From Natronomonas sp. CBA1123 (GTDB taxonomy: Archaea > Halobacteriota > Halobacteria > Halobacteriales > Haloarculaceae): 56,954 bases of DNA. The translations under genes were made by a program, and so were the position numbers. The stretch spans positions 1 through 56,954 of the forward strand of contig NZ_WPCC01000019.1 in the NCBI RefSeq assembly GCF_009741925.1. Reading direction: 5' to 3'. The notes under the pieces were generated by a model. The model was not told where the DNA came from. It saw only the letters and a program-made list of their open reading frames with translations, and searched no databases. Shown here one piece after another: positions 38,787 to 52,895 of this stretch (position 1 is the first letter of the stretch; each line of letters starts with the position of its first letter).

Positions 38787-40418
38787 GTGCCAAACGAGGA
38801 ACCGGCGCGTCTGGCCACCGAACTCGCCAGCCACGGCTACACCGCCGACCGGGAGGCGATTACGCTGCTCGCGCGTGCGGAGAACCCCGCCGAGGCGCTG
38901 TTGGTGGCCGTCGAGGCCACGCCCGACGACGCGCTGAAACTTTCGGCGGCCGACGTTCGCGACGCCCTCGACGGCACACCGAGAGGGCGACGGGACCCGA
39001 TTTCGGGAAGCGAGGAGGATGCGGCGGCCGACGCCACGATGGACACGGCAGCGACGACGGATGCGCCGGCGACGCCTGCAAGTGGTGCCGACCACTCGAC
39101 CGAAGACCCCTCTGTTTCAAGTGGAACCCCACAACCCCAATCGAGCGGTTCGGGGGGTGTGTCTCCAGTTGAAACGAAGGGGTCTTCGGGGAGCCGAGAC
39201 ACCGACCCCTCGCTGCGCTCGCTGGAAATCGGCAACGACATGACCGGCCACTCGACCGGGATCGGCGAGTACGAGGACTTCGTGGCGACGTTTCGGGACC
39301 GCTACGACCGGCTTTCGGGGAAACTGAAGGGCCGGGTCAACCACCGCAACGCGACGGCGCTGCAGGCCAGCCCTGGCGGCGGCGACGCCGGCATGGTCGG
39401 GATGGTCTCGGACGTCCGCTCGACCGCGAACGGCCACTGGATTATCGAGTTAGAGGACACGACGGGCGTGTTCCCCTGTCTCGTGATGAAGGACAAGGAC
39501 ATCGCCGACCTCGTCGAGGAGTTGCTGTTCGACGAGGTCATCGCCGTCGACGGGACGCTCTCTGACGACGGGAGCATCATGTTCGTCGACAGCCTCCACT
39601 TCCCGGACGTCCCCCGGACGTACAAGCCATCGACGGCGGACCGCCACGTCCAAGCCGCGCTCATCAGCGACGTCCACGTCGGCAGCGAGGAGTTCATGGT
39701 CGACGCCTGGCAGCGGTTCACGTCGTGGCTCCACACCGAGGAAGCCGAGAACATCGAGTATCTGCTGTTGGCCGGAGACATGGTCGAAGGCGTCGGCGTC
39801 TACCCCGACCAGGACGAGGAACTCGACATCGTCGACATCTTCGACCAGTACGAGGCGTTCTCGGAGCACCTCAAGGAGGTCCCCGGCGACATGGAAATCG
39901 TCATGATACCCGGCAACCACGACGCGGTCCGGCTCGCGGAGCCGCAACCCGGCTTCGACGAGGAGTTACGCGACATCATGACCGCCCACGACGCCCGCAT
40001 CGTCTCGAACCCGGCGATGGTCTCCGTCGAGGGCGTCTCGGTGTTGATGTATCACGGCGTCTCCTTAGACGAGGTCATCGCCGAACTCCCCGAGGAGAAG
40101 GCCAACTACGACGAACCGCACAAGGCGATGTACCAACTGCTGAAGAAACGCCACGTCGCCCCGCAGTTCGGCGGCCACACCCGACTGGCCCCCGAGGAGA
40201 AGGACTACCTCGTCATGGACGAGGTGCCCGACGTGTTCCACACCGGCCACGTCCACAAACTCGGGTGGGGGAAGTACCGGAACGTGCTGGCGGTGAACTC
40301 CGGCTGTTGGCAGGCCCAGACCGACTTCCAGAAGAGCGTCAACATCGACCCAGACGCCGGGTTCGCGCCGATTCTCGACCTCGATACGCTGGAGATGACG
40401 GTTCGGAAATTCACCTGA
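38787..40418 (+). CDS. polB: DNA polymerase D small subunit DP1 (3'-5' exonuclease)
   Basis: A 543-residue subunit. N-terminal residues 1-65 form a helical domain; about 66-160 are a low-complexity acidic Ser/Thr/Pro linker; an OB-fold follows (GMVGMVSDVRSTANGHWIIE). Then comes an Mre11-like calcineurin phosphoesterase with SDVHVGS, LAGDMVEG, PGNHDAVR, YHGVSLDE and HTGHVHKLGWG, the proofreading nuclease of PolD. The start is GTG at 38787. The linker coding DNA contains an inverted pair of ORB-like elements (39102-39188), described separately. Confidence 0.95.
   Translation: MPNEEPARLATELASHGYTADREAITLLARAENPAEALLVAVEATPDDALKLSAADVRDALDGTPRGRRDPISGSEEDAAADATMDTAATTDAPATPASGADHSTEDPSVSSGTPQPQSSGSGGVSPVETKGSSGSRDTDPSLRSLEIGNDMTGHSTGIGEYEDFVATFRDRYDRLSGKLKGRVNHRNATALQASPGGGDAGMVGMVSDVRSTANGHWIIELEDTTGVFPCLVMKDKDIADLVEELLFDEVIAVDGTLSDDGSIMFVDSLHFPDVPRTYKPSTADRHVQAALISDVHVGSEEFMVDAWQRFTSWLHTEEAENIEYLLLAGDMVEGVGVYPDQDEELDIVDIFDQYEAFSEHLKEVPGDMEIVMIPGNHDAVRLAEPQPGFDEELRDIMTAHDARIVSNPAMVSVEGVSVLMYHGVSLDEVIAELPEEKANYDEPHKAMYQLLKKRHVAPQFGGHTRLAPEEKDYLVMDEVPDVFHTGHVHKLGWGKYRNVLAVNSGCWQAQTDFQKSVNIDPDAGFAPILDLDTLEMTVRKFT
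39102..39188. other. Inverted ORB-like initiator-binding elements inside the DP1 gene
   Basis: The plus strand reads GACCCCTCTGTTTCAAGTGGAAC at 39105-39127 (split here as GACCCCTCTG and TTTCAAGTGGAAC). About 36 bases on, the minus strand reads GACCCCTTCG then TTTCAACTGGAG (39163-39184). Both match the origin elements at 50420-50442 and 50683-50705 (ACCCCTTTG-TTTCAACTGGAAC; minus-strand ACCCCTTCG-TTTCGAGTGGAAC), and the C-rich ends point outward in both places. No AT-rich unwinding region lies between them, so it is probably a binding site and not an origin. Confidence 0.65.
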
Positions 40419-41310: not shown

Positions 41311-44300
41311 ATGCGAGACGACGACGAAGCGTACTTCGAGCGGTTGGAAGACGGCCTCGACGAGGCGATGGAACTCGCCCGGGAGGCCCGACAGCGCGGC
41401 GGCGACCCCACCGAGGACGTGGAGATTCCCATCGCCAAGGACATGGCCGACCGCGTCGAGAACATCCTCGGCATCGACGGCGTCGCCGAACGCGTCCGGG
41501 AGATGGAAGAAAACCCCGACCTCTCCCGGGAGGAGGCCGCCCTCGAACTCGCCGAGGACTTCGCCGAGGGACGGGTCGGCGACTACGACTCGAAGGCAGG
41601 AAAGGTCGAGGGTGCAGTTCGTACGGCGGTCGCGCTGTTGACCGAGGGCGTCGTCGCCGCGCCCATCGAGGGCATCGACCGCGTCGAAATCCTCGACAAC
41701 GACGACGGCACGGAGTTCATCAACGTCTACTACGCCGGCCCGATTCGCTCCGCAGGGGGGACCGCACAGGCGCTGTCGGTGCTGGTGGCCGACTACACCC
41801 GAACGCTTATCGGCATCGAGGAATTCAAACCCCGCGACGAAGAGGTCGAACGCTACGCCGAGGAGTTGGCGCTGTACGACAACGAGACCGGCCTCCAGTA
41901 CAGTCCGAAGGACGCCGAGACGAAGTTCATCGCCCGGAACATGCCCATCATGCTCGACGGGGAGGCGACGGGCGACGAGGAGGTCTCGGGCTTTCGGGAC
42001 TTAGAGCGGGTCGACACCAACAACGCCCGCGGTGGGATGTGTCTCGTCTTGGGTGAGGGTATCGCCCAGAAGGCCCCGAAGATTCAACGCTACACCTCCC
42101 AACTCGACGAGGTCGACTGGCCGTGGCTCCAGGACCTCATCGACGGGACCTACAAGAAAGACAACGGAGAGAGCGGCGACGCCGAGGCGGAGGACGACAC
42201 CGAGGAAGAGGCCACGGGTGAGGCTGAGGGCGCCAAACCCGAGGAAGACGCCGAATTCGAGGGCAACGACGGCCCACCACGTCCCGAGCCCTCGACGAAA
42301 TTCCTCCGGGACCTCATCGCCGGCCGGCCCGTCTTCGGTCACCCCTCCGAAGAGGGTGGCTTCCGACTCCGCTACGGTCGCTCGCGGAACCACGGTTTCG
42401 CGACCGCGGGCGTCCACCCCGCGACGATGCATCTCGTCGACGACTTCCTCGCGACTGGCACCCAAATCAAGACCGAACGCCCGGGGAAAGCCGCCGGCGT
42501 CATCCCCGTCGACAGCATCGAAGGGCCGACGGTCAAACTCGCCAACGGCGACGTTCGCCGCGTCGACGACCCAGCAGAGGCCTTGGAGATACGCAACGGC
42601 GTCGAGGCCATCCTCGATTTGGGCGAGTACCTCGTCAACTACGGCGAGTTCGTCGAGAACAACCACCCGCTGTCGCCGGCCTCCTACACGCCGGAGTGGT
42701 GGAAACACGACCTCGCGGCCGCCGGCGCCGACGTACAGGCTCTGGAGGATTCCCCGCGCGTGGACCTCGAACACCCCGACACCGAACGCGTCCTCGAGTG
42801 GGTCGACGAGTACGACGCTCCCCTTCACCCCGAACACACACCCCTCTGGCACGACCTCGACATCGAGCGGTTCGAGGCGCTGGCCGAGGCAGCCAGCGAC
42901 GGCCACTGGGCCGAAGCCGACGGGATGGCGATGGACGCCGACGACACCGTCGACGGATTCGAGGCCGCCGAACGGACACTCGTCCTCCCCCGAACCGAAC
43001 CCGTCCGGGAGGCACTGGAGGTGCTCATCGTCGAACACACCCAGGGAGAAGAGACGCTGACGGTTCCCGACGCCGTGCCGCTGGTGCGTTCGCTCGGCCT
43101 CACCGACGACCTCGAACGGACGTGGGAGTCCGGCGAGCTGTCGTCAGCCGCTCGGAACTACGACGGGGGCGAAAACGCGGTGAAGGCGGTCAACGAGGTC
43201 GCACCCTTCGAGGTACAGGAGCGAGCGCCGACCCGCATCGGTTGTCGAATGGGTCGCCCCGAGAAATCCGAGAAGCGTGACCTCTCGCCGGCGGTTCACA
43301 CCCTGTTTCCCATCGGCGAGGCCGGCGGTTCCCAGCGAGACATCGCCGCCGCCGGCAAACACGCCGAAACCATGCAGGACACGCCGGGCATGGTCGAGGT
43401 GCAGGTCGGACGGCGGAACTGCCCCGATTGTGGCACCGAGACCCACCGGGCACGCTGTCCCGACTGCAACGCGGTTACCGAGCCCCACTACGTCTGTTAC
43501 GACTGCGACATCGACGTCGAACCCGACGAGGCCGGCCGGGCCATCTGTCCGCGCTGTGAGCGAGAGGCCGACGCCGTCCAGACGAAGACCATCGACGTCA
43601 ACGACGAGTACCGCACGGCGCTGTCGAACGTCAAAGAACGGGAGAACGCCTTCGACGTGCTGAAAGGCGTCAAGGGACTCACCTCCGAGCACAAGGTTCC
43701 CGAACCCATCGAGAAAGGCGTCCTCAGGGCGAAAAACGGCGTCTCATCGTTCAAGGACGGCACCGTCCGCTACGACATGACCGACCTCCCCGTCACGTCG
43801 GTCCGGGCGTCGGAACTCGACGTGACCGTCGGCCAACTGCAGGCGCTCGGCTACGAGGAGGACATCCACGGCCAACCGCTCACCCACGAGGACCAACTGG
43901 TCGAGTTGCGGGTCCAGGACGTGGTCCTCTCCGACGGCGCCGCCGAACACATGATTCGGACCGCCGACTTCGTCGACGACCTGCTGGAGCAGTACTACGG
44001 CCTCGACCGCTTCTACGAACTCGAGGACCGCGACGACCTCGTCGGCGAGTTAGTGTTCGGGATGGCACCCCACACCTCCGCCGCAGTTGTCGGAAGAGTG
44101 ATTGGTTTCACCTCGGCAGCGGTCGGATACGCGCATCCGTACTTTCACGCCGCGAAGCGTCGGAACTGTGACGGGGACGAAGATTGCGTGATGCTCCTCA
44201 TGGACGGACTTCTCAACTTCTCGAAGTCTTTTCTCCCGAATCAGCGCGGGGGTCGGATGGACGCGCCGCTGGTTATGTCTTCCCGCATCGACCCCGCCGA

Positions 44301-44919
44301 AATCGACGACGAAGCCCACAACATGGACATCGCTTCCTCGTACCCGCGAGAGTTCTACGAGGCGACCCGCGAGATGGCCGACCCCGGCGAGGTCGAGGAC
44401 CTCGTCCAAATCGGCGAGGATACCCTCGGAACCGAAGAGCAGTACCGCGGGTTCGAACACACCCACGACACGACCGACATCGCACTCGGCCCGGACCTCT
44501 CGGCGTACAAGACGCTGGGCGACATGATGGAGAAGATGAACGCCCAACTGGAACTGTCGCGAAAGCTCCGGTCAGTCGACGAGACCGACGTGGCCGAGCG
44601 GGTCATCGAGTACCACTTCCTGCCGGATATCATCGGGAACCTGCGGGCGTTCTCTCGGCAGGAGACGCGGTGTCTCGACTGTGGGGAGAAGTTCCGTCGG
44701 ATGCCGCTGACCGGCGACTGCCGGGAGTGTGGCGGCCGGGTGAACCTCACCGTCCACCAGGGGTCGGTGAACAAGTACATCGACACCGCGACTCAGGTCG
44801 CCGAGGAGTACGGCTGTCGGGAGTACACGAAACAGCGGTTGCGGATTCTCGACCGCTCGCTGGAGTCAATCTTCGAAGACGACACCAACAAACAGAGCGG
44901 CATCGCGGATTTCATGTGA
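41311..44919 (+). CDS. polC: DNA polymerase D large subunit DP2 (no intein)
   Basis: A 1202-residue catalytic subunit of archaeal replicative PolD. Visible features are YYAGPIRSAGGTAQALSVLV near residue 142, an acidic insertion at about 285-330, a zinc-binding module (CPDCGTETHRARCPDC, about 705), the active-site segment NCDGDED (N952 onward), FSKSFLPNQRGGRMDAPLVM, a second zinc site (CLDCGEKFRR, C1121, with CRECGG), and the C-terminal PCNA-binding motif QSGIADFM. No intein is inserted at the classical site before C953. The 66 codons around that site have atypical codon usage (see findings). It follows the PPC gene directly. Confidence 0.97.
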   Translation: MRDDDEAYFERLEDGLDEAMELAREARQRGGDPTEDVEIPIAKDMADRVENILGIDGVAERVREMEENPDLSREEAALELAEDFAEGRVGDYDSKAGKVEGAVRTAVALLTEGVVAAPIEGIDRVEILDNDDGTEFINVYYAGPIRSAGGTAQALSVLVADYTRTLIGIEEFKPRDEEVERYAEELALYDNETGLQYSPKDAETKFIARNMPIMLDGEATGDEEVSGFRDLERVDTNNARGGMCLVLGEGIAQKAPKIQRYTSQLDEVDWPWLQDLIDGTYKKDNGESGDAEAEDDTEEEATGEAEGAKPEEDAEFEGNDGPPRPEPSTKFLRDLIAGRPVFGHPSEEGGFRLRYGRSRNHGFATAGVHPATMHLVDDFLATGTQIKTERPGKAAGVIPVDSIEGPTVKLANGDVRRVDDPAEALEIRNGVEAILDLGEYLVNYGEFVENNHPLSPASYTPEWWKHDLAAAGADVQALEDSPRVDLEHPDTERVLEWVDEYDAPLHPEHTPLWHDLDIERFEALAEAASDGHWAEADGMAMDADDTVDGFEAAERTLVLPRTEPVREALEVLIVEHTQGEETLTVPDAVPLVRSLGLTDDLERTWESGELSSAARNYDGGENAVKAVNEVAPFEVQERAPTRIGCRMGRPEKSEKRDLSPAVHTLFPIGEAGGSQRDIAAAGKHAETMQDTPGMVEVQVGRRNCPDCGTETHRARCPDCNAVTEPHYVCYDCDIDVEPDEAGRAICPRCEREADAVQTKTIDVNDEYRTALSNVKERENAFDVLKGVKGLTSEHKVPEPIEKGVLRAKNGVSSFKDGTVRYDMTDLPVTSVRASELDVTVGQLQALGYEEDIHGQPLTHEDQLVELRVQDVVLSDGAAEHMIRTADFVDDLLEQYYGLDRFYELEDRDDLVGELVFGMAPHTSAAVVGRVIGFTSAAVGYAHPYFHAAKRRNCDGDEDCVMLLMDGLLNFSKSFLPNQRGGRMDAPLVMSSRIDPAEIDDEAHNMDIASSYPREFYEATREMADPGEVEDLVQIGEDTLGTEEQYRGFEHTHDTTDIALGPDLSAYKTLGDMMEKMNAQLELSRKLRSVDETDVAERVIEYHFLPDIIGNLRAFSRQETRCLDCGEKFRRMPLTGDCRECGGRVNLTVHQGSVNKYIDTATQVAEEYGCREYTKQRLRILDRSLESIFEDDTNKQSGIADFM

Positions 44920-44958: not shown

Positions 44959-46941
44959 ATGGAACGCGAGGAGTTGGAGACGATTCCGGGCGTCGGCGCG
45001 AAAACCGCCGAGCGCCTGGCCGAGCTCGAGGACCCCGAGGCCGCGCTCGCGGCGGGCGACGTGGCGACGCTGGCGAGGGCACCCGGCATCAGCGACGGGC
45101 GGGCGGCCCGCATCGCTCGCGCCGCGATTCGGGACCGACACGGCGACGACGGCGACTTCCTCGCGACCGCCCGTGCACGAGAAATCTACGAAGACGCGCT
45201 CGGATTGCTCCAGGAGCGTGCGGTCACCCACTACGCCGAGAAGCGATTGGAGACGCTGTATCCGAGCGCCTCGGAGTCGCGAATCGAGGAAGTTCGGGCG
45301 TTCGCCAGCGAGGCCGTCGAACGCGAACCGACGCCGGAGGTCCGCGAGGCGTTGGAGGGGGTCGAACCGCTCGAAGCACCGCGAGACGTTCGAGTACGGG
45401 ACCGGTGTCTGGCGACGAACGACGCCGAAACCTACTCGGAAGCGCGGGAGGCCGTCCCCGAGATGAGCGTCGAGTTGGTCGAAGACGCCCGCGGCATCGC
45501 CGATCTGGCGCGGGGGTACTCGACGGTCGTCGTTCTCGATGCCGGGTTCACCGGCGTCGAGGTCGACGGCGACGTTCGAGTCGAACCGAACGCACTGGAG
45601 GACCCGGTGAGCATCGTCCCCGAGCGGACGCTAGCCTTTTTCGCCCGCAATCGCGACCGACTCCGAGCCGCCGCGGCCGTCCATCGAGTTGCGGGCATCG
45701 ACGCACCCTGTGACATCGAGACGCTGGACGAGGCGCTATCGCGGCTCAACGAGGACGGAACCGTCGCCGGCGACGACGACCTCGAAGCCCTCGAAGACGC
45801 GGTTTCGGACCTCGATGCCGCCGTTTCGATGGCCGAGGGCGTCGCCAACGACCACCTCCGGGAGGCCATCGAAGAACGCGACGTGACAATCGAGGGGACC
45901 GACCTGCTGTCGTTGGTCGAGCGCGGCGCGGGCGTCGACTCGCTTCTCGAACGGGAGTTAGCCGACGAGTTCGCAGCAGCGGTCGAGGCGGCGCGGGACC
46001 GCTTCGTCGACACGCTGGGGGTCGAGGACTACGAATCGCTGGCGCGGCAGGCCTTCGGCGAGGAGCCGACGTTTCCCGTCGAACACGACGAACGCGTCGT
46101 CGAGCGGTTGCGCGAGGAGTTGACCGCCGAGCGCGACCGACGGGCCGCGCGGTTGAAGCGGGACCTCGCCGACGACCTCGGCGAGATGCGCGACCCCGCC
46201 GAGGAACTCGTCGACGCGGCGCTGGAACTCGATGTCGAGCTCGCAATCGCCAGGTTCGACGAGGACTTCGACTGCGTGTTTCCGACGTTCGAAGGGCGGG
46301 GGTTCGAAATCGAAGGCGGTCGGTCACCGCTGCTCGACGTTGACTTCGAGGCGGTCGAACCGGTCGATTACGGCGTCGAGGGCGTCGCGTTGCTCTCGGG
46401 CGTCAACAGCGGCGGGAAGACATCGACGCTGGATTTGGTCGGGCTGGTCGTCGTCTTGGGACAGATGGGGCTGCCAGTGCCCGCCGAGAGCGTCCGACTG
46501 GAGCGCTTCGAGGCGCTGCACTATCAGGCGAAGACACAGGGAACGCTGGATGCGGGCGCCTTCGAGTCGACCCTCCGGGAGTTCGGCTCACTGGTCGCTG
46601 GCGAGCGGACCCGTCTCGTGTTGGTCGACGAGTTGGAGTCGATAACCGAACCCGGCGCGAGTGCCGTCATCATCGCGGGTATTCTGGAAGCGTTAACCGA
46701 GAGCGATTCCACCGCGGTGTTCGTCTCGCATCTCGCGGGCGAGATACGGGAGGCCGCCGCTGTCGACGTAACCGTCGACGGAATCGAGGCCCTCGGCCTC
46801 GAAGACGGCGAACTGCAGGTGAACCGTTCGCCGGTCAAAGACCACCTCGCCCGGTCGACGCCGGAGCTCATCGTCGAGAAGTTGGCCGAAGAGGGCACCG
46901 ACGACGTGTTCTACAGCGATTTGCTTGAGAAGTTTGACTGA
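44959..46941 (+). CDS. MutS-family ATPase with N-terminal helix-hairpin-helix (MutS2/MutS5-like)
   Basis: A 660-residue protein. N-terminal helix-hairpin-helix units (LETIPGVGAKTAERLAELED, LARAPGISDGRAARIARAAI) are followed by a charged helical clamp-like region and a C-terminal MutS ATPase: GVNSGGKTSTLDLVGLVVVL (Walker A), TLREFGSLV, RLVLVDELESITEPG (Walker B) and VFVSHLAGEIREAA. It lacks the mismatch-recognition domain of MutS1, so it is closer to MutS2/MutS5; Haloarchaea carry several such paralogues. A recombination or DNA-structure role is inferred. It lies between DP2 and an Orc gene. Confidence 0.88.
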   Translation: MEREELETIPGVGAKTAERLAELEDPEAALAAGDVATLARAPGISDGRAARIARAAIRDRHGDDGDFLATARAREIYEDALGLLQERAVTHYAEKRLETLYPSASESRIEEVRAFASEAVEREPTPEVREALEGVEPLEAPRDVRVRDRCLATNDAETYSEAREAVPEMSVELVEDARGIADLARGYSTVVVLDAGFTGVEVDGDVRVEPNALEDPVSIVPERTLAFFARNRDRLRAAAAVHRVAGIDAPCDIETLDEALSRLNEDGTVAGDDDLEALEDAVSDLDAAVSMAEGVANDHLREAIEERDVTIEGTDLLSLVERGAGVDSLLERELADEFAAAVEAARDRFVDTLGVEDYESLARQAFGEEPTFPVEHDERVVERLREELTAERDRRAARLKRDLADDLGEMRDPAEELVDAALELDVELAIARFDEDFDCVFPTFEGRGFEIEGGRSPLLDVDFEAVEPVDYGVEGVALLSGVNSGGKTSTLDLVGLVVVLGQMGLPVPAESVRLERFEALHYQAKTQGTLDAGAFESTLREFGSLVAGERTRLVLVDELESITEPGASAVIIAGILEALTESDSTAVFVSHLAGEIREAAAVDVTVDGIEALGLEDGELQVNRSPVKDHLARSTPELIVEKLAEEGTDDVFYSDLLEKFD

Positions 46942-50711: not shown

Positions 50712-51109
50712 TACTCCCCTCCGTTTCCCGTGCATCAACTGGAAATCTCATTCACCGCTATCTCGCCATCATCTCACCGGCTCCGAGACCTTCTCAAATG
50801 GGTCCCGACCAGCGACCGCGAGTCCCGAATTCGACCGTTACACTCGTCTTACCTCCTCGGAATTCACTCGTAGGCCCGTCCTAAACCCAGCTACTGAGCC
50901 CGTGTCCGTCACGACCCCTCGAGCGTGAGGGGCCGAATACAATCCCGTCGAGACTGAATCAATCGTGGTTTCAGGTAATCGCACCGCAACGTTTAATACC
51001 GCATTCCACCATCGGTTCCCCTGCATCAATTGGACGGCCGAATTCGACCTGATTCCACACAGCAGGCGTCTATCGCCTCTCTCTGGCCTGCTCGGCCGTC
51101 GCGCAGTGA

Positions 51110-51132
51110 CGTTCCACCTGAAACAGGGGGGT
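51110..51132 (-). other. Additional ORB-like element before orc1
   Basis: GTTCCACCTGAAACAGGGG with a trailing GGTTC lies 9 bases before the orc1 ATG. The core and G-string match the other boxes. Its location in the 5' leader suggests autoregulation by Orc1. Confidence 0.7.
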
Positions 51133-51140
51133 TCAGAACG

Positions 51141-52895
51141 ATGACAGACGACGATTCGAACACATCAACTGACGGAGGTGATAGTTCGGCGGTACCCGAC
51201 GACTCGAACGTAGGTACCTCGACCACCGAGAAGAGCCGTGGCTCCACCGACGACTCGGCCTCGACAGCGACGGATGGCTCCGAGAGGACCGACCCGGCGA
51301 CTGATGCGGATGAGGTACCGGCACCGGAATCCGAAGAAATAGCCCCAAACGACGGTGATTCTCCACCGGAAGCGGAGGGGTCGGCCGTCGACGCCAGCGT
51401 CGACGCCACGGACGTCGACACACAGGGTCGCAGCGTCGACGGGTTCTCCGGGGATGTCGATTTGGAGGACCTCGACCTCGACGCCGCCGCCGACGAGGAG
51501 ACCGACGAGGCCTCTCGTGGGCTGTTCGACGACTTGCTCGAAGGCGAACCCATCTTCGAGAACAAGGAAGTCCTCCGACCCTCCTACACCCCGCGGAAAC
51601 TCCCCCACCGCGAGGAGCAGATCAACAACATGGCGACCATCCTCGTCACGGCCCTGCGCGGGGAGACGCCGTCGAACATTCTCATCTACGGCAAGACGGG
51701 CACCGGAAAGACCGCCAGCGCGAAGTTCGTCTCCGAGGAGTTGGAGACAACCTCCGAAAAGTACGAGGTCCCCTGTGAAGTCGAGTACATCAACTGCGAG
51801 GTAACCGACACCCAGTACCGCGTGCTCGCACAACTCGCGAACAAGTTCATCGAGAAGAACGAGGCCTACATCGAGCGTCGACTCGACGAACTCGACGAAC
51901 TTCGTGACGACGCCGCGGCGGACCCCTCCGTTCTCGAGGGCACCGAGTTCGACAGCGTCGCGGCGGTCGAAACCAAGATTCGGGACCTCGAAGACGACCT
52001 CGAAGAGTTCGAACCCGTCCCGATGACGGGGTGGCCGACCGACCGGGTGTACTCGACGTTCTTCGACGCGGTCGACTACCACGAACGCGTCGTCGTCATC
52101 ATGCTCGACGAAATCGACAAACTCGTCGAGAAGTCGGGCGACGACACGCTCTACAACCTCTCGCGGATGAACTCCGAGCTGGAGAACTCCCGGGTATCGA
52201 TTATGGGCATCTCCAACGACCTGAAGTTCACCGACTTTCTCGACCCGCGGGTCAAATCCAGCCTCGGCGAGGAGGAAATCGTCTTCCCGCCGTACGACGC
52301 TACCCAACTTCGGGACATCCTCCAACACCGTTCGGAAATCTCGTTTAAACCCGACACGCTCTCGGACGACGTGATTCCGCTGTGTGCGGCCTTCGCGGCA
52401 CAGGAACACGGCGACGCCCGCCGTGCGCTCGACCTGCTTCGAACCGCCGGAGAACTGGCCGAACGGGACCGCACCGAGACCGTCGAGGAGAAACACGTCC
52501 GCCACGCCCAGGAGAAAATCGAACTCGACCGCGTCGTCGAAGTGGTCCGAACTCTCCCGACCCAATCGAAACTCGTCCTCTACGCCACCATCCTCTTGGA
52601 GGAAAACGGCGTCCACAACATCAACACCGGCGAGGTGTTCAACATCTACAAGCGACTCTGTCAGGAAATCGACGCCGACGTGCTCACCCAACGCCGGGTG
52701 ACCGACCTAATCAGCGAACTCGACATGCTGGGCATCGTCAACGCCGTCGTCGTCTCGAAGGGTCGCTACGGCCGGACGAAGGAAATCAGCCTCTCGGTTC
52801 CGCTCGACGAAACCGAAGCCGTCCTGCTGTCTGACTCCCGGGTCGGCGAGGTCGAGGAGGCCCAACCGTTCGTGCAGGCGCGGTTCGATAACTAA
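51141..52895 (+). CDS. orc1: Origin-linked Orc1/Cdc6 initiator with long acidic N-terminus
   Basis: A 584-residue initiator. Residues 1-130 are a disordered Asp/Ser/Thr/Glu-rich extension not present in most Orc proteins. The AAA+ core follows: VLRPSYTPRKLPHREEQINN, Walker A YGKTGTGKTASAKFV, a helical insertion (ERRLDELDELRDDAAADPSV), Walker B VVVIMLDEIDKLVEKSGDD, sensor SIMGISNDLKFTDFLDPRVK and HGDARRALDLLRTAGELAER. A C-terminal winged helix (RRVTDLISELDMLGIVNAVV) ends it. The ATG at 51141 is chosen over the in-frame TTG at 51030 because the latter would put ORB sequence inside the gene. Confidence 0.95.
   Translation: MTDDDSNTSTDGGDSSAVPDDSNVGTSTTEKSRGSTDDSASTATDGSERTDPATDADEVPAPESEEIAPNDGDSPPEAEGSAVDASVDATDVDTQGRSVDGFSGDVDLEDLDLDAAADEETDEASRGLFDDLLEGEPIFENKEVLRPSYTPRKLPHREEQINNMATILVTALRGETPSNILIYGKTGTGKTASAKFVSEELETTSEKYEVPCEVEYINCEVTDTQYRVLAQLANKFIEKNEAYIERRLDELDELRDDAAADPSVLEGTEFDSVAAVETKIRDLEDDLEEFEPVPMTGWPTDRVYSTFFDAVDYHERVVVIMLDEIDKLVEKSGDDTLYNLSRMNSELENSRVSIMGISNDLKFTDFLDPRVKSSLGEEEIVFPPYDATQLRDILQHRSEISFKPDTLSDDVIPLCAAFAAQEHGDARRALDLLRTAGELAERDRTETVEEKHVRHAQEKIELDRVVEVVRTLPTQSKLVLYATILLEENGVHNINTGEVFNIYKRLCQEIDADVLTQRRVTDLISELDMLGIVNAVVVSKGRYGRTKEISLSVPLDETEAVLLSDSRVGEVEEAQPFVQARFDN

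Follow-up and report, generated by a model that had tools for sequence, protein, structure and literature searches.

Codon-usage islands over vacant intein targets in haloarchaeal DNA polymerase D and other genes

Introduction

Why should the codons around an intein target that holds no intein depart from the usage of the gene in which they lie? The question is raised by a 56,954-nucleotide stretch of Natronomonas sp. CBA1123 (contig NZ_WPCC01000019.1; hereafter the window), which carries at 41311-44919, on the forward strand like all features below, an intein-free gene for the large subunit (DP2) of DNA polymerase D. Its product of 1202 aa matches the family models of this subunit over its full length (NCBIfam PRK14714, PRK04023 and TIGR00354; Pfam PF03833, PF24844 and PF24846). 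The initial annotation of the window had described a tract rich in A- and T-ending codons around the empty intein junction of DP2, and had explained it by co-conversion from an intein-bearing donor.

Results and discussion

A codon-usage island in DP2

Codon 925 of DP2 begins at 44083, so that codons 925-990 correspond, in frame, to 44083-44280. Within this segment 22 of the 66 codons end in A or T (15 T, 7 A), as originally counted, against a whole-gene mean of 15.7%; the flanks are at 9.2% (codons 860-924) and 13.8% (codons 991-1055). After correction for amino acids, no other stretch of 66 codons among the 1202 of the gene deviates as strongly (z=4.57; permutation p of 0.002 over 5000 synonymous shuffles), which confirms the observation. 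It is centred, as had been proposed, on the C953 codon at 44167, that is, on the pol-IIa intein junction N952/C953 (44166-44167), where most relatives carry insertions of ~170-520 codons and where the present gene has an intact NCDGDED motif and no intein. The bounds and the nature of the tract, in contrast, had to be revised. Per-genome segmentation and the class-wide profile place its edges at codons ~923-978 (44077-44244) instead of 925-990, a reach of ~80 bp on each side of the junction (the best segment from this genome alone is wider, codons 914-990), and what is lost is the preference for C-ending codons, which is not an AT shift alone. A second intein site is also vacant. It lies after codon 982 and before codon 983 (44256-44257), and we infer it to be the pol-IIb site, an allele listed in PMC4071816; of the 161 alleles compared below, 28 have insertions of ~450-530 codons there, and a single further insertion is short.

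The island is a class-wide feature and is strongest in empty alleles

Codon-by-codon mapping of DP2 in 161 haloarchaeal genomes shows that this tract is one case of a feature of the whole class, a ~56-codon island over the intein target. Insertions at codons 952/953 were sorted by size into full-length (~450-520 aa) and mini-inteins (~170-260 aa), and we infer from this length and from PMC4071816 that the latter are devoid of endonuclease; the empty class comprises the 58 alleles vacant at both intein sites. The fraction of A/T-ending codons (AT3) in the tract is 0.307 in these empty alleles versus a background of 0.113 (excess +0.194), 0.237 versus 0.125 in the 33 full-intein alleles (+0.112) and only 0.145 versus 0.123 in the 41 mini-intein alleles (+0.022). 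The best AT3 window of the entire gene lies at the junction in 50 of the 58 empty genes, in which the excess amounts to +0.22 at codon 925 and +0.04 in the next window; no island is seen to the right of the second intein site. Segmentation of each genome separately finds an island over the junction in 46/58 empty, 18/33 full and 7/41 mini alleles, with median edges at codons 924.5 and 978.5 in the empty ones. To the left of the junction the island is mostly retained in full-intein alleles, and several empty alleles (e.g., G074, G082 and G035) have none.

Within genera, AT3 is higher in empty than in mini alleles by 0.134 (9 genera, p=0.001). Independent phylogenetic pairs, taken from a gene tree built without the tract, also favour emptiness, by 12.7 to 1.5 (median p 0.004). 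Broken down by class, these pairs separate empty from mini alleles (p 0.04) and show no difference between full and mini alleles, while empty and full alleles alone do not differ significantly (p 0.07 from the pairs, p~0.07-0.09 when the within-genus comparison is included). The only sub-window that separates empty from intein-bearing alleles as classes is codons 953-959 (44167-44187), just 3' of the junction, which are more alike among intein-bearing alleles than among empties; this class effect rests mainly on codons 954-959, because codon 953 of the intein-bearing rows was read from the first Cys of the intein. An apparent replacement of DGD by FHP at codons 954-956 in mini-intein loci (L038, L040, L041 and others) proved to be an alignment artefact, in which the intein start CFHPE had been placed past C953.

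Islands occur at intein sites of other genes

A tie between islands and intein sites is strongly supported by three other replication genes. Intein-free MCM genes (n=30) have their top AT3 windows over intein sites (+0.17 at codon 309 and +0.09 at codon 375), as part of an excess over codons 311-430 that peaks at +0.33 in codons 331-340, and the insertion points known from relatives, codons 331, 358, 396 and 411, all fall inside this range. In intein-free PolB, the two highest AT3 windows (codons 561-616 and 628-683) lie at sites b and c, and site a has no island; in intein-free RFC, the highest window coincides with the Walker-A intein site, though more weakly, and the second intein site has no island. 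Uninvaded motifs were represented by two controls only, and neither has an island: CDC48, an intein-free gene with two Walker-A motifs, gives bins of -0.03 to -0.055 over these, and the MCM paralogs (n=20), which share the Walker-A motif and in which no intein was found, give -0.03 on a high AT3 background of 0.32. Over eleven sites, island strength correlates with occupancy (Spearman 0.76, p=0.006), a value that is indicative only, with occupancies taken among the matches listed and several strengths rounded by eye. The initial annotation was right to tie the island to the intein site.

Nature of the codon shift

At fourfold sites the tract of empty alleles is composed of A.17, C.29, G.38 and T.16, versus A.04, C.61, G.31 and T.05 in the DP2 gene. 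C-ending codons thus give way to A, T and, to a small extent, G; the change is the same to the left and to the right of the junction and covers a normally conserved protein segment. The resulting values are near those of the full inteins (A.15, C.35, G.34, T.16), and tract AT3 correlates per genome with intein AT3 (rho 0.57 overall, 0.66 among minis). Distant empty alleles have a synonymous identity of 0.43 in the tract versus 0.62-0.68 elsewhere. The composition-corrected divergence of close pairs is 0.31 in the tract and 0.32 in the control; that of intermediate-distance pairs is 0.75 versus 0.56, and at this distance 29% of the pairs exceed 0.85, i.e., have practically unrelated tracts, versus 2-19% in other windows. 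Since close pairs diverge equally and intermediate pairs diverge more in the tract, we regard it as being at a different codon equilibrium and not plainly under a higher mutation rate.

Three other causes were discarded. Local hypermutation is disfavoured by the equal divergence of close pairs. Deamination of cytosines in resected single strands predicts T to the left and A to the right of the cut, and both bases rise on both sides. A conserved RNA element is disfavoured by the fold of the tract, not unusually stable compared with shuffles (z=+0.87), by Rfam, which detected no known family in the tract and gave one sub-threshold match outside it, and by the lower synonymous likeness of distant empties.

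Proposed selection at exposed, vacant sites

Our preferred explanation, which we hold tentatively, is that wherever a site stands vacant and endonucleases can reach it, selection favours synonymous changes that take the DNA away from the homing target, and that the island reflects this. Homing endonucleases (HEN) that come in with inteins would find vacant sites open to attack. The protein hardly varies at the site, so that only synonymous change could weaken the DNA as a target. Such changes would make it a poorer substrate for cutting and a poorer homologue of the intein-bearing donor DNA in repair. As the genome uses mostly C/G-ending codons, selection away from the canonical target would surface as A/T-ending, rare codons. 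Haloarchaea are polyploid, and a cut might then be repaired from an identical intact sister copy, so that conversion would be avoided. Once a HEN-less mini-intein sits in the site, exposure would be over and codon preference could return. The DP2 gene of the window would represent a vacant, exposed allele.

Such selection is consistent with the specificity of the island for intein sites among the genes examined, with its link to vacancy, with the class difference at codons 953-959, with the equal divergence of close pairs, which speaks against hypermutation, and with the vertical persistence of the tract in the AU test described below. In Haloferax, homing depends on the length of the flanks, being 90% when they measure 850 bp and 20% when they measure 250 bp (PMC3024317), and escaper mutations in the extein target have been recovered (PMC10643990). 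A typical HEN site measures 14-40 bp; the 80-bp reach is far larger than this, which counts against selection and is easier to reconcile with conversion or repair than with recognition by itself. Single synonymous changes are tolerated by HENs (PMC3024317), which also counts against selection, as do the Natronomonas island that is independent of intein state (see below), the left half kept by full alleles, the marginal difference between empty and full alleles, the greater tract divergence of intermediate pairs and the absence of islands at PolB site a and the second RFC site. Moreover, the composition of the tract is close to that of inteins, as would be expected of a mere absence of codon selection, which may account for it as well as active avoidance would. 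The stronger proposition, that in essential replication genes ~160-170 bp round vacant intein targets are kept off preferred codons and lower cutting or conversion in this way, as a synonymous resistance at the DNA level, is one that we consider conceivable but doubtful.

Break repair as the main rival

The main rival to selection, which we judge possible though rather unlikely, is a footprint of break repair: recurrent HEN cuts followed by gap repair or conversion might re-copy ~80 bp on each side without any resistance benefit. By the same doubtful account, weak codon selection could fail there, so that third positions would drift towards the make-up of DNA that is mobile or under no selection. 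The island would then correspond, for archaeal inteins, to the exon diversity reported beside mobile introns in mitochondria, which offers a precedent (PMC5378118). This would accommodate third positions of empty tracts that are near those of full inteins and far from those of the gene, the correlation between tract and intein AT3, the symmetric extent with its recurring edges and the unrelated tracts in some mid-distance pairs. However, close-range divergence is not raised, both sides of the junction shift alike with no strand-specific signature of deamination, and distant species share haplotypes of the tract no more often than those of other windows.

Apparent inheritance of the tract

According to the co-conversion proposal, the site was once converted by an intein whose flanks were foreign, and precise loss of that intein followed; the tract should then group with intein-bearing alleles and depart from the rest of the gene. 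Neither was borne out. In the tract as in the rest of DP2, the alleles nearest to the present one (G000) belong to the two most closely related species, of which G002 is empty and G003 intein-bearing. AU tests on the 171 columns of the tract, whose shortness and near-saturated synonymous sites limit power, did not reject a clade of G000, G002, G003, G004 and G008 (p 0.75) or one of all sampled Natronomonas (p 0.64). Distances in the tract do not follow those of the intein beyond the gene (partial Mantel r=0.02, p=0.33, for 33 full-intein alleles with synonymous sites near saturation); the distances of full inteins correlate little with those of the host gene (r=0.23), whereas mini-inteins do follow the gene (r=0.66 synonymous, 0.85 amino acid). 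Natronomonas shows no island difference by intein state and shares the island with and without the intein, a pattern common to close relatives that tells in part against co-conversion. As judged from these sequence comparisons, the island appears to be inherited within Natronomonas and not to be the scar of a recent intein exchange.

No match to a distinct tract donor was obtained among phage or plasmid records, and the sole IMG/VR candidate (L215) was set aside as a distant DP2 of another archaeal type. Individual tracts are alike across families (G000 with G124, 90% over 168 bp; G113 with L142, z=4.5); surplus trading of tract haplotypes between families was rejected, cross-family likeness being no commoner than in other windows.

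Co-conversion is thus very improbable as the source of the island. The centring on the junction, the greater sharing of codons 953-959 among intein-bearing alleles and the report of tracts that outlast intron loss in plant cox1 (PMC3192709) would suit it, but the strength of the island falls from empty to intein-bearing alleles and almost to nothing in long-resident minis; nor does the tract track the intein phylogeny or reject a Natronomonas clade, no distinct donor emerged from phages, plasmids or IMG/VR, and the islands show the same spread across dozens of lineages. It is hard to credit, too, that slow codons over the catalytic core aid folding or assembly and that inteins insert there by chance: recurring edges and rare codons over a conserved active-site segment would agree with such a role, but the Walker-A motifs of CDC48 and the MCM paralogs are free of islands, mini-intein alleles and the island-less empties named above manage without one, conserved residues just past codon 981 are encoded almost only by G/C-ending codons, and the RNA fold is ordinary.

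Relation to known systems

The closest parallel is the elevated exon diversity near mobile introns of yeast mitochondria (Repar and Warnecke 2017, PMC5378118), where third positions are likewise altered near the site of an endonuclease element, protein constraint is not relaxed and mobility is implicated. That case concerns within-species nucleotide polymorphism at mitochondrial introns, whereas here a stable, class-wide codon shift is found at archaeal inteins, strongest when the site is vacant and with edges at ~80 bp. In plants, the cox1 intron has co-conversion tracts (Sanchez-Puerta et al. 2011, PMC3192709) that also consist of synonymous differences beside a homing site and can outlast the element; they are, however, donor-shared and mainly downstream, unlike the two-sided DP2 island, which is most pronounced where the intein is missing and does not follow its phylogeny. 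The same gene and intein allele were surveyed by Soucy et al. (2014, PMC4071816), who reported a wide distribution of the haloarchaeal pol-IIa intein with many mini-inteins, as also found here; a term search of that survey returned no mention of codon usage or GC content. For the MCM inteins of Haloferax, target alleles that resist or escape are known (PMC10643990), and they agree with the present case in that vacant targets can resist invasion and that extein flanks matter; the natural resistance described for them is due to a proline residue that blocks splicing, whereas the divergence seen here is synonymous and on an 80-bp scale. The open-access literature that we searched does not describe codon islands at intein sites, although such a report may exist elsewhere.

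If the tie to homing is true, inteins influence codon choice in the essential genes that they target, most where they are absent, and a codon scan could flag target sites under homing pressure. If the resistance reading is true as well, one genome would suffice to read past and present homing pressure from its codon islands. An old question, that of host resistance to homing elements where the active-site protein cannot change, is made directly testable. Third positions near intein sites would also be unsafe for codon-adaptation statistics.

Inteins of close relatives and neighbouring genes

Three very close Natronomonas genomes differ in intein state gene by gene and form a natural set for gain and loss (loci L031, L035, L304 and L255). 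The present genome is intein-free in DP2 and MCM, but its PolB gene is invaded at site b by an intein of ~400 aa (N/SLYG; G000:C51:2114-6133; loci L251, L253 and L382); G002 has an MCM intein at codon 358 and none in DP2, and G003 has a DP2 intein and no MCM intein.

Within the gene set of the window, AT3 rises above that of the DP2 island only at the 5' ends of open reading frames, far upstream of recognised domains, and these are probably over-extended starts. The frame upstream of DP2 (38787-40418), whose domains of DP1, the small subunit of DNA polymerase D, begin at aa ~204, is very AT3-rich in codons 78-133 (39018-39185; z=6.9), and its start is perhaps over-extended. The gene directly 3' of DP2 (44959-46941) has helix-hairpin-helix and MutS domain V matches. 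The Orc1/Cdc6 gene (51030-52895) is AT3-rich in its first ~60 codons, with a domain that starts at aa ~190, and its start is likely miscalled; a replication origin region possibly lies nearby.
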